This document shows, piece after piece, positions 29,964 to 33,173 of a stretch of 34,589 nucleotides of DNA (position 1 is its first letter; the number at the start of each line of letters is the position of its first letter). This DNA comes from Candidatus Moraniibacteriota bacterium (GTDB lineage: Bacteria > Patescibacteriota > Minisyncoccia > Moranbacterales > UBA1568). The notes under the pieces are model-generated. The model had not been told where the DNA came from and made no database searches. It saw nothing but the letters and a program-made list of their open reading frames with translations. The translations under genes and the position numbers were made by a program. Location: contig SSEF01000027.1 in NCBI GenBank assembly GCA_008012175.1, positions 1 through 34,589 of the forward strand. The letters run 5' to 3'.

Positions 29964-30095
29964 GGAGCGGGTAACGGGAGAATCTCACTCGTCTTCGGCT
30001 CTTTGAGAACCCCTCGGTTCTCAACGCTCGAGAGACTCGCTGCTCTCCGCCACAGGAAAACTCCCGTTTTCCCGACCCCTTTCCCGTTCTCCTCC
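29964..30095 (-). repeat. Element A: ~130-nt structured repeat ending in a tRNA-Gly 3'-end-like sequence
   Basis: Minus strand GGAGGAGAACGGGAAAGGGGTCGGGAAAACGGGAGTTTTCC ... GTGAGATTCTCCCGTTACCCGCTCC; homologous to 32212-32340. Confidence 0.75.
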
Positions 30096-30110
30096 CGCGC
30101 TACTCCCACA

Positions 30111-30149
30111 AAACTAAAAATCACCCCGATATGGAGTGATTTTTAGTTT
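30111..30149. terminator. Terminator-like hairpin adjacent to element A
   Basis: AAACTAAAAATCAC-cccgatatgga-GTGATTTTTAGTTT. Confidence 0.65.
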
Positions 30150-30153
30150 CCTG

Positions 30154-30180
30154 AGTGGGTGCGTCCGAGATGTTCGAACT
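30154..30180 (-). pseudogene. tRNA 3'-end-like fragment
   Basis: Plus strand agtgggtgcgtccgagatgttcgaact; the minus strand reads AGTTCGAAC...CGGACGCACCCACT, a T-loop plus acceptor-like end with no 5' half. Confidence 0.35.
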
Positions 30181-30241
30181 GAAGTGTGCTTTGGGTAAGC
30201 CTTTGGGATTTGGCTTACTGAAGTAAGCCCTTACAAGACGG

Positions 30242-30892
30242 TTATCCCTTGAGATACCTTTTTAAGAAATCCTCTCGTGAGATATAAGCTCTACGATTGA
30301 GACTGCTCTCTGTCGATTCTTTATCAACCGTAAAACCAAAGCGTTCAATCACCCGAGGGCGTCTCGCTATCATAAGGGAATTCCCTTCAATAAGACTTAT
30401 TTCTGGATGATTTTGGACAACTTGTGCGAGTTTTTGCATGGCCTCTTTGAATTTCGTCAGAATGTTTTCATTTCGTTGTTCAGGCACTTCATTTAGATAA
30501 ATATGAATAAATATTGTGCTTTCTGAAATCTCATACGAAACGACCTTATTTATTTCGATATAGTCCGGCCTCTTCTCGCCTTCTGCAAGAAATGACTCAG
30601 GATCCTCGAACTTCTTATCGATAATAGGTTTAAAAAGCTCAAAGAGGGCGTCAACAAATTGATCCTTTTCTTCTATATCAGCGCACTCATCAAGCCTTGA
30701 GAGAAAAGCTTCTTTATTCTCAATCAAAGGCATAATTCCCTCGAGCGTTGATTTTATGTATTCAACTCTTTCCTTGCTCGTCTTGTATGTCTCAGCAATA
30801 CCTGCTTTTGAGACACGATAAAACTCCAATCGCTTCTTCTCGTCTTCAGAGAGAGCAGGTTTTTCAGGGGATGATAATGGAAATTTTTCCAT
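30242..30892 (-). CDS. Hypothetical protein
   Basis: 216-aa ORF, ordinary composition, no recognised family. Confidence 0.75.
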   Translation of the reverse strand: MEKFPLSSPEKPALSEDEKKRLEFYRVSKAGIAETYKTSKERVEYIKSTLEGIMPLIENKEAFLSRLDECADIEEKDQFVDALFELFKPIIDKKFEDPESFLAEGEKRPDYIEINKVVSYEISESTIFIHIYLNEVPEQRNENILTKFKEAMQKLAQVVQNHPEISLIEGNSLMIARRPRVIERFGFTVDKESTESSLNRRAYISREDFLKRYLKG

Positions 30893-30930
30893 ACGTTCAT
30901 TCTACCTCAGTTCGACCGTACATTCCCGGT

Positions 30931-30972
30931 ATAAAAAACAAGGCTCTCTAGAGCCTCATTTTTAACTGAGCT
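30931..30972. repeat. Terminator-like repeat, copy 1
   Basis: ATAAAAAACAAGGCTCtctaGAGCCTcATTTTTaACTGAGC; near-identical to 32175-32216. Confidence 0.7.
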
Positions 30973-31078
30973 GGCTGGTAGATACGGTTAGAACTTTTTA
31001 CATATAAAAAGAAAAAGGCCACGTTTCCGTTATGGATTCGTGGCCTCATGCCTTACGCGGCGTTGCCGCTGAAGTAGG

Positions 31079-31792
31079 TCACTTCTTCTCGTCGGCCTTC
31101 GGCTGCGGAGCCGTCAGGGTGATGCGGGCGGCGCCAGCCTTCGCGATCGCGAGCTTCTGGCCGAACTCTGCCAGGCCGCGCGATTCGTAGACCTTGTACG
31201 CCGTCAGCATGTCGATGGCGAGACGGGTCTGTTCCTCGGGGATCGGCACGAAGGACAGGAAGTTGAGCTTCACGCCCTTGGACTTCAGCACTTCGTTCAC
31301 CGCCGCGAGGAGCTTGTCCTCGAACTCGGCCTGGGAGAAGTCGACGATGTCCTCCTTGAGGAGCATGTCGGCCGCGATGTCGCGGATGCGCTTGTCGATG
31401 ACCGCGTTCTCGGCGGCCTCGTAGAGGCCGGAGGCGTTCGACTTGTCGGTCGCGTCGGTGTTGGCCTTGCCGATGTACTTGGCTTCGCCGACGAAGACGA
31501 TCGCATCGAAGATGCTGTAGTCGTAGGCGACCTCGACCTCGGCCAGCACGCGGCCTTTGAACATGGTCTTGAAGCGCGTGTCGCCCTGCAGCGGGTAGTC
31601 CGGCACGGTGACGTGGTACTCGCACTTGAACTGCTTGTACGGGATCGGCTCGCCGACCTTGATGAGCTGCCAGTTGACGCCGCAGTCCTTCGTGTAGAGG
31701 GTCTGGACGTTCGAGAACGCCCGGTCGGCACAGCCGGTCAGGAATGCAGCGATGGCAGCGAGCGCGAGCGCGATGATGCGGATGGACTTCAT
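31079..31792 (-). CDS. Lipoprotein with SPFH/band-7-like domain
   Basis: Lipobox LALAAIAAFLTGC; FKGRVLAEVEVAYDYSIFDAIVFVGEAKYIGKANTDATDKSNASGLYEAAENAVIDKRIRDIAADMLLKEDI; markedly GC-rich. Confidence 0.75.
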   Translation of the reverse strand: MKSIRIIALALAAIAAFLTGCADRAFSNVQTLYTKDCGVNWQLIKVGEPIPYKQFKCEYHVTVPDYPLQGDTRFKTMFKGRVLAEVEVAYDYSIFDAIVFVGEAKYIGKANTDATDKSNASGLYEAAENAVIDKRIRDIAADMLLKEDIVDFSQAEFEDKLLAAVNEVLKSKGVKLNFLSFVPIPEEQTRLAIDMLTAYKVYESRGLAEFGQKLAIAKAGAARITLTAPQPKADEKK

Positions 31793-31822
31793 GGATAGAC
31801 TCCTTGGTCGTTGTGGTTGGGT

Positions 31823-32038
31823 TCAGGAGAAGTCGAACTTCGCCTTGGCGATACGCCAGATGGCCCAGCCAGCCGCCGCGATGATCGCGATCGGCAGGAG
31901 GACGTAGAAGAACGACTGGTAGAACGGCGCCGTCTCGTACTGGCGGCCGAGCACGAAGACCCGGAACCAGAACTCGAGCGGGATCGTGACGATCCACACC
32001 ACGAACAGGATGAGCGCCAGCTTCGAGAGAGTTTTCAT
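31823..32038 (-). CDS. Small membrane protein (two TM segments)
   Basis: 71 aa; LALILFVVWIVTIPLEFWF and FFYVLLPIAIIAAAGWAIWRI; same GC-rich module as 31079-31792. Confidence 0.65.
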   Translation of the reverse strand: MKTLSKLALILFVVWIVTIPLEFWFRVFVLGRQYETAPFYQSFFYVLLPIAIIAAAGWAIWRIAKAKFDFS

Positions 32039-32174
32039 GTGACCTCTTCGGTTGTCAAAGAAATTCCCTACATGCCGGGAATAACGGGCAATCTCAAGAG
32101 ACTATCTTGAAACAAAATAGGATAGCATATTTTTATACTTTTGTCCACCCCAAGTTCGACTCCGTTTAGGGGAA

Positions 32175-32216
32175 ATAAAAAACAAGGCTCTGGTGAGCCT
32201 TATTTTTGACTGAGCG
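32175..32216. repeat. Terminator-like repeat, copy 2
   Basis: ATAAAAAACAAGGCTCtggtGAGCCTtATTTTTgACTGAGC. Confidence 0.7.
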
Positions 32217-32340
32217 GGTAAGGGGAGAATCTCACTACTCGCTTCGCTGCGTTCTATAGGGCTTCCGCCCTCTAGCCCTCGAAGACTCGGTCACCCCAAA
32301 CGGGAAACTTCCGTTTCCCGACCCCTTCCCGTTCTCCTCC
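32212..32340 (-). repeat. Element B: ~130-nt structured repeat, second copy
   Basis: Minus strand GGAGGAGAACGGGAAGGGGTCGGGAAACGGAAGTTTCCCG ... GTGAGATTCTCCCCTTACCCGCTC. Confidence 0.75.
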
Positions 32341-32352
32341 ATTACCTCGAAA

Positions 32353-32388
32353 GCAATCAAAAACTCCCACAAGGGGAGTCTTGATTGC
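32353..32388 (-). terminator. Intrinsic terminator after tRNA-Gly
   Basis: GCAATCAAaaACTCCC-acaa-GGGGAGTcTTGATTGC. Confidence 0.65.
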
Positions 32389-32393
32389 CTTAG

Positions 32394-32465
32394 AGCGGGT
32401 AACGGGAGTCGAACCCGTATCTTGACCTTGGCAAGGTCACATAATAGCCGCTATACGATACCCGC
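32394..32465 (-). tRNA. tRNA-Gly(GCC)
   Basis: Reverse complement GCGGGTA TCGTATAGCGGCTATTATG TGACCTTGCCAAGGTCA AGATACGGGTTCGACTCCCGT TACCCGCT. Confidence 0.95.
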
Positions 32466-32558
32466 TGATTTTCTCCATCAAAAACAATATGGCCCGAAAC
32501 TGGAAACTGATCAACACGTGGGACTGGATGGATTCGAACCATCGACCAACAGGTTATG

Positions 32559-33173
32559 CTTCTCACTATTGCTTTCGCAACTCTTTCGATTTGTGAGCTG
32601 GACTATCCCTTCACCCCACGAGAGGGGGGCCTGCCGTCTAGTCTCTACACCTTCCTCGAACATTCGAGGCTTGGCTCGGGATTGTCCTGCGATTGAAGGA
32701 TTCAACCGTTTAGATTTCCCCGAATTTGACAAGTTATCATTCAAGAATTGCTCCTTGAACAGCCCTGCTTGTCCATATAAATCATGTTATCATTCGGTTA
32801 TGAATAAATCCATAACCTGCGTCGTGTGTGCACGCCTGCTATCCGGAAAACAAAGTCTGTACTGTTCGGTTTTTTGTAAAAACCAAGTCCATCAATCCTA
32901 CGCTGCGCAACAAGAACGCGGCTGGGCAAGAAAGAAGGAACTCGTGGAACGAATGGGCGGTGAATGTTCAGCATGCGGTTACAAAAAGAATTTGTCCGCA
33001 CTCGCGTTTCACCACGCTGATCCAGAACAGAAAAACTTTCAATTGGATATCCGATCTCTCTCCAATCGGAGGTCGTCTCAGATCGAGAGAGAAATTCGGA
33101 AGTGCACCCTGCTCTGCAACAACTGCCATGCAGAGCTCCACAATCCAAAACACAACTTATGAAAGGACACTTG
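32559..33173 (-). mobile_element. Group I self-splicing intron in the tRNA anticodon loop
   Basis: 5' exon ends in U and intron ends in G. Core motifs on the minus strand: P TCAAATTCGGGGAAATCTAA, Q GACAATCCCGAGCCAAGCC, R GGTGTAGAGACTAGACGG, S AAGGGATAGTCC; P7 pairing GACTA/TAGTC. Confidence 0.9.
32800..33162 (+). CDS. HNH endonuclease encoded antisense within the group I intron
   Basis: CVVCARLLSGKQSLYCSVFCKN zinc-ribbon-like part, then ECSACGYKKNLSALAFHHADPEQKNF ... EREIRKCTLLCNNCHAELHNP canonical HNH. Confidence 0.9.
   Translation: MNKSITCVVCARLLSGKQSLYCSVFCKNQVHQSYAAQQERGWARKKELVERMGGECSACGYKKNLSALAFHHADPEQKNFQLDIRSLSNRRSSQIEREIRKCTLLCNNCHAELHNPKHNL

Follow-up and report, generated by a model that had tools for sequence, protein, structure and literature searches.

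Elements A and B, two structured sequences on the minus strand of a 34,589-nucleotide contig of a Candidatus Moraniibacteriota bacterium (the whole of this stretch is referred to below as the window), belong to a previously undescribed family of gene-less DNA insertions of about 0.15-0.25 kb, located at the termini of tRNA genes and of other essential genes in ultra-small Patescibacteria. At least 180 copies of the family were collected, and the named hosts are all CPR/Patescibacteria or related candidate divisions. The typical architecture of a copy is one in which the intact end of a gene (t) is followed by a spacer, the reverse complement of t (named t'), a structured core and a second copy of the gene end (named D). 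A block of identity between the two copies runs to the gene end, the arm t' is specific for the target, the core shows covariation, lineage-specific cores are found at many targets, and an empty site was found at one locus. The target-specific arms and the pairing counts point to integrated DNA with a folded attachment site, and we consider it rather probable that A and B represent gene-less mini-integrative DNA elements in their integrated state, with a folded attachment site that is matched to the target.

Elements A and B in the window

An earlier note on this DNA had described A and B as two diverged copies of a structured element with compensatory changes in its hairpins and no evident homologous ORF. 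Its positions and sequences were correct (A, 30095-29965; B, 32340-32212; minus strand), and the two hairpins that it gave for each copy were found again. Identity between the copies is 73% (BLAST E 2.4e-10), and the 1.02-Mb genome has no others. According to the window ORF list, no ORF of at least 80 aa spans either of them. Among the checks that the note had proposed, BLAST searches detected copies in 18 (query A) and 19 (query B) of 54 relatives, and the Rfam covariance models gave no match at A or B at gathering or permissive thresholds. The features of the two elements are as follows.

29965-30095, minus strand: element A (main core type, one additional hairpin); covariance-model match at 30000-30084, E 5.1e-14
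30086-30095, minus strand: arm t' of A, GGAGGAGAAC (from the sequence)
30053-30074, minus strand: hairpin P2 of A, CGGGAAAAC-GGGA-GTTTTCCTG (sequence and covariation)
30003-30024, minus strand: hairpin P3 of A, TTGAGAACC-GAGG-GGTTCTCAA (sequence and covariation)
29965-29988, minus strand: D copy of A, GTGAGATT + CTCCCGTTACCCGCTC; the last 15 nt are identical to the tRNA-Gly end
32212-32340, minus strand: element B (core type B); covariance-model match at 32270-32330, E 5.5e-7
32331-32346, minus strand: arm t' of B, GGTAATGGAGGAGAAC, a degenerate reverse complement of the tRNA-Gly T-arm
32301-32320, minus strand: hairpin P2 of B, CGGGAAAC-GGAA-GTTTCCCG (sequence; P2 is conserved in the family)
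32254-32275, minus strand: hairpin P3 of B, CTA.AGGGC-GGAA-GCCCT.TAG (stem also present in L005 and L031)
32212-32235, minus strand: D copy of B, GTGAGATT + CTCCCCTTACCCGCTC, displaced tRNA-Gly 3' end (from the sequence)

The note had paired the outer arms of A as AACGGGA/TCCCGTT; the outer stem consistent with the family is GGAGAA/TTCTCC, formed by t' with D. The outer arms are no arbitrary closing stem of an RNA: one arm copies the 3' end of the adjacent tRNA, the other is its reverse complement, and they differ from locus to locus. In both elements the arms are degenerate with respect to the tRNA and pair better with D (GGAGAA/TTCTCC), which suggests that these copies are probably old. Folding of A and B is better than that of nearly all dinucleotide shuffles on both strands (z-scores of -2.5 and -2.2 for the minus strand, -3.4 and -3.6 for the plus strand), and thus folding alone is no proof that the minus strand acts as RNA.

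The surroundings of the two elements contain the following features.

32393-32465, minus strand: tRNA-Gly(gcc), target gene of B, whose 3' end is the intact copy (named U) (ARAGORN; Rfam tRNA)
32341-32392, minus strand: spacer d between tRNA-Gly and B, with a terminator-like hairpin (GACTCCCCTTGTGGGAGTTTTTGATT) (sequence; layout repeated in relatives)
32175-32218, minus strand: 44-bp repeat, copy 1 (end of D plus terminator), flanking the putative foreign gene (alignment)
30931-30974, minus strand: 44-bp repeat, copy 2 (alignment)
31079-31792, minus strand: 237-aa lipoprotein-like ORF with weak SPFH/Band 7 similarity (ORF list; profile similarity; GC)
30242-30892, minus strand: 216-aa ORF without Pfam match, between the 44-bp repeat and A (ORF list; Pfam)

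The two 44-bp repeats align with a score of 58 against a shuffled maximum of 24. The SPFH-like ORF that lies inside them, between B and A, has a GC content of about 63%, compared to about 50% for its surroundings and the genome, and by its composition would be a foreign cargo gene. The tRNA-Gly gene matched by the D copy of A sits 2308 nt upstream of core A, and the stretch from B to A may have grown by accretion into an array that carries cargo. No second case was met: when other cargo-bearing copies were sought, only the window's A was found to stand kilobases from its tRNA, and L169/L212, the same locus, has a spacer of 0.15 kb. The same B core type is present at the same tRNA-Gly in the relatives G023, G020 and G018, and in G018 t' tracks the tRNA-Gly allele (L031 vs L005). 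Next to this locus, a Group I intron (Rfam, 55.7 bits; window 32577-32790, minus strand) apparently splits a tRNA that lies between tRNA-Gly and tRNA-Phe. The opposite strand has an ORF (32422-33162) with a weak HNH match at its end, which at 18.9 bits is below the cut-off; this ORF perhaps encodes the homing endonuclease of the intron.

Extent of the family and structure of the core

The motif AAGGGGTCGGGRAAACRNNNGTTTNCC was scanned over 84,980 species genomes and matched at least 113 stretches; among the 80 titles listed, every group named is Patescibacteria/CPR or a related candidate division. With a covariance model of the core, copies were detected in 36 of 379 genomes of the phylum, with up to 8 copies per genome. 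No copy was found in the plasmid and phage collections searched and no convincing one in viral contigs, where two pattern matches lacked P3 and the arms. Searches of the open-licence literature on CPR tRNA repeats, structured RNAs and integrons gave no description of the family.

The conserved core consists of two to three hairpins with strong compensatory change. P2 has 9 bp and P3 has 8 bp. Of their cells in 45 aligned cores, which were chosen for a clean P3, 97.1% are paired, and the double changes number 56 compared to 14.4 in shuffles, P2 being partly fixed by the search motif and P3 lying outside it. The compensatory changes seen earlier between A and B are thus borne out in their relatives. 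Pairing of the same 45 cores falls to 57-68% when it is shifted by one column. The loops are often GNRA, and GGTA also occurs. The cores group by genome and not by tRNA target, with mean alignment scores of 39.9 within genomes, 19.2 between genomes and 18.0 for cores of different genomes at the same tRNA, which indicates that core and target are inherited separately.

Other inserts were observed at similar places. A second core type, unrelated to the first and likewise arranged as t'-core-t (GGGCGCGAGT.GAAT..GAGCGAGCGAG..ATTCTGTGTGTAG.GCCC), is located downstream of tRNA-Gly (L018, L005) and tRNA-Glu (L008), and a similar layout with unrelated core types occurs in G013 and G009. A third insert type (GGACGAGAAGCAAGGTCCGCCAAAGTGATATC...), followed by a tRNA 3' end copy and without obvious t', was found at tRNA-Ala(tgc) and tRNA-Leu(aag) of G127 (L276, L283). 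Many tRNAs of G141 (L295-L308) carry another repeat family (GTCTTCGCTACC...GCGAAGACTGCCCTGCGTAG...) directly after the CCA, and tRNA ends there thus are general hot spots for small repeats.

Targets and target-matched arms

A tRNA or tmRNA gene lies just upstream and on the same strand in 135 of the 186 copies with enough flank, with a median distance of 60 nt from the tRNA end to the core, and the occupied targets include all 20 amino-acid tRNA types and tmRNA. In the set selected by the covariance model, 54 of 67 copies are behind a tRNA or tmRNA. Protein genes, identified by Pfam, are also occupied, either at their 3' ends (rpsI, rpoD, gyrB and an aminoacyl-tRNA synthetase) or at their starts (fusA, typA, lepA, rplK, dnaX and dinB), and in several of these loci (e.g. 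L072, L095, L104, L109 and L127) the repeats end at or near the start or stop codon. At L009, for example, the tRNA ends in ...GTTCGAATCCTGCCGCCGGAGC and the element reads GGCAGGATTCGAAC-core-GTGAGTGTTCCTGCCGCCGGAGC. The spacer often contains a terminator.

In 59% of 183 copies the arm t' scored at least 12 when compared with the gene upstream of it, whereas permuted flanks gave 3.7%; exact matches are up to 20 nt long, and this fit was found again in the covariance-model-selected set. It matches the intact gene better than D in 159 copies and D better in 11. This preference indicates that the hairpin t'-core-t is part of the element. The arm t' resembles the intact copy because the element contains both of them, and in a circle they would form, with the core, one hairpin whose stem repeats the target.

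The displaced gene end and the empty site

D is present in 113 of 133 tRNA-linked copies, the other 20 being without a clear D. It extends back 14-27 nt (mostly 15-20) from the tRNA end, into the T-loop, and the identity between U and D stops at a median of 1 nt past the tRNA (within 3 nt in 73 of 113). Phages and islands that integrate into tRNA genes restore the gene that they enter, and the geometry of such site-specific events is well established; a D copy from the T-loop to the tRNA end is the signature of tRNA-targeted site-specific integration. Against an integrative element count the 20 copies without a clear D, the 22 of 113 copies in which the identity runs for at least 9 nt past the tRNA end, and the loci L065, L157 and L128, where the D side also holds t'. 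The long identities and the t' on the D side call for a same-strain donor or for some other mechanism.

The comparison of empty and filled sites comes from one locus, the tRNA-Thr(ggt)-rpmG interval. Within the family to which the window's genome belongs, G021 has no insert in this interval, whereas G008, G009 and G020 have one. The DNA beyond D can be aligned with the empty flank of G021 (scores of 27, 56 and 98); the flank of the intact tRNA copy does not align with the empty site (scores of 12 and 16). The gene end that was there originally is therefore D, and the inserted DNA comprises t, spacer, t' and core. An earlier model had the D side arise as a new duplication and t' by fold-back synthesis; it was given up since the empty Thr site puts D on the original flank. 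The pair G127/G141 was also tried as a source of empty sites and gave no clean one, as the flanks differ. The occupied tRNAs differ between two species of one genus. Taken with the empty and filled sites and the identical cores at different targets, this patchy occupancy suggests that the elements are mobile.

Pairing of the hairpins

The earlier note had suggested selection on RNA structure, and an RNA was the reading first considered. The conserved structure with compensatory change stands; its attribution to RNA was weakened by the ratio of G-U to A-C pairs, which is 56:29 in the hairpins of the elements, about a twofold G-U excess, whereas at the same loci the acceptor stems of the tRNAs give 138:4 and the terminator hairpins that follow tRNAs give 57:9. 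In the covariance-model set the ratio is 24:12. Watson-Crick pairing is almost strictly kept, as expected for folded DNA, with a modest G-U excess left chiefly in P2 (21 G-U vs 5 A-C over all cores), and these statistics look like those of DNA and not of RNA.

Multi-copy genomes and possible recombination machinery

Among the multi-copy genomes are G301 (8 copies), G096 (7) and G142 (5). G096 has identical or near-identical cores at several tRNAs and also tandem arrays (L262, L261) of near-identical units with periods of 163 and 193 nt, of which the Arg array ends in a stub consisting of t' + CAGAGGGGGTC. Truncated copies of this kind, with t' and 11-15 nt of core, are present at tRNA-Arg of G127 and at the end of the G096 array. 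The arm in G096 is only 5-7 nt long with additional imperfect matches, which counts against an integrative element.

No integrase is encoded in the element, which has no ORF, or linked to it, and no free circle or excised form was seen. Reverse transcriptase was not found in the multi-copy genomes G301, G142, G096, G138 and G325, nor Y1_Tnp in G142, G138, G285, G127, G325 and G096, nor the TnpB C-terminal domain in 36 genomes. G096, G301 and G142 have one Phage_integrase match each, of Xer type, which scores best as XerD/XerA and far below the integron cut-offs; an integron integrase is absent from the three genomes. Xer is also present in element-free genomes. By elimination only, an Xer-type recombinase would be the candidate.

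Proposed mechanism and alternative explanations

According to the integrative model, an element would carry a replacement gene end t (from the T-loop to the end of the tRNA), a spacer, t' and the structured core. It would enter a tRNA gene in the T-loop, or another conserved gene at a corresponding position close to the gene end; the element's own t would restore the gene and the original gene end would be moved to the far side of the core as D. The free form would probably be a single-stranded circle, in which t' would pair with t across the core, so that the base of the hairpin would reproduce the target site in double-stranded form. This folded site might then be recombined with the gene by a host-encoded tyrosine recombinase, for which several multi-copy genomes offer no candidate other than the Xer type. 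Such a use as folded DNA may be likened to integron attC sites and to the CTX phage attachment site. The model does not account for one core with arms for more than 25 targets, and the remaining twofold or so G-U excess also counts against it. A further step, that this is gene-less mobile DNA whose insertion specificity is set by base pairing, the hairpin stem being a copy of the target site and the conserved core being used by a generic host recombinase and retargeted to any conserved gene end by a mere change of arms, is put forward only tentatively.

A structured noncoding RNA or cis-regulator of the upstream tRNA, with t' pairing to the T-arm or D and switching processing or termination, would agree with the covariation, the many GNRA loops, the G-U excess of P2, the complementarity of t' to the intact tRNA, and the B-type element kept behind the same tRNA-Gly in four genomes with a t' that follows the tRNA allele. 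We consider it unlikely, as the targets include antisense starts of fusA, typA, lepA and rplK, so that the sense of the RNA relative to the gene would be inconstant, the overall G-U:A-C ratio is far from that of tRNAs or terminators, tRNA occupancy differs between two species of one genus, and the empty site reveals an insertion. The same empty site bears on template switching during replication, in which the nascent strand would fold back on the T-arm, copy t', jump via T-loop homology to a distant core and return, the gene end being duplicated without any enzyme. T-loop sequences are short, repeated and partly palindromic, stubs of t' with 11-15 nt of core occur in G127 and G096, some loci have long duplications, L061 and L109 have microhomology, and no dedicated enzyme was found. 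However, template switching predicts an original spacer and a new D flank, the opposite of what the Thr locus shows, and leaves identity blocks that stop at the tRNA end unexplained; its probability appears rather low.

The geometry of the identity blocks is that seen with tRNA-integrating phages, and the GC-rich foreign-looking gene between B and A, inside the 44-bp repeats, would also suit the view that ordinary phages or islands once integrated at tRNA genes and left remnants, the hairpins being decayed arms of att sites. Yet tens of target sequences that are unrelated to one another have the same conserved core beside them, the arms and not the core are target-specific, and the plasmid, phage and viral searches gave no convincing match, which makes such remnants improbable. 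A non-autonomous SINE-like retroelement, mobilized by a reverse transcriptase through target-primed reverse transcription, would have a structured core, target duplication and multi-copy spread as observed, but the five multi-copy genomes searched lack a reverse transcriptase and the pairing is DNA-like, so that this explanation is very improbable.

Relation to known systems and significance

The family resembles integrative elements and prophages that enter tRNA genes by tyrosine integrases with crossover in the T-loop, in that the tRNA 3' end is restored, a displaced copy lies at the far end, the identity block runs from the T-loop to the tRNA end and the empty site agrees. It differs from them by its size of about 0.15-0.25 kb, the absence of any gene, the inverted target copy beside the core, and the range of targets of a single core family, which comprises 20 tRNA types, tmRNA and the ends of protein genes. 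With integron cassettes and their attC sites, including integrase-less CALIN arrays, it shares a site of ~60-140 nt whose structure is conserved and whose arm sequence is little conserved, as well as tandem accumulation at one site (here G096, tRNA-Gly locus). Unlike attC, however, it has several hairpins instead of one, and its arms match the target gene and not a fixed RYYYAAC/GTTRRRY box. Such RYYYAAC...GTTRRRY boxes are absent: the inner arms are GAAC/GTTC, with C as the fourth base, or at protein genes the target's own sequence. With CTX phage and other integrative elements that exploit Xer (IMEX), the family is proposed to share a folded single-stranded attachment site and a host Xer recombinase; it targets tRNA T-arms and gene ends and not dif, and Xer is only a putative partner. 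REP/REPIN sequences with their RAYT (Y1) transposases are likewise short, gene-less hairpin elements scattered in the chromosome, whereas the family described here is site-specific at gene ends, has target-matched arms and shows no link to a Y1 transposase. The rtT repeats that follow tyrT in E. coli are similar in that they include the tRNA 3' end as a copy, but they are confined to one locus and one tRNA, without a target-adapted core family.

CPR genomes supply both filled and empty sites, and the mechanism can be tested by sequence alone. If it is true, a gene-less mobile element of 0.15-0.25 kb would be added to some of the smallest bacterial genomes known, and would account for repeated sequence beside the tRNA genes of Patescibacteria. 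It would also represent a natural recombination system in which the choice of target appears to reside in the arms of a hairpin and not in a protein.
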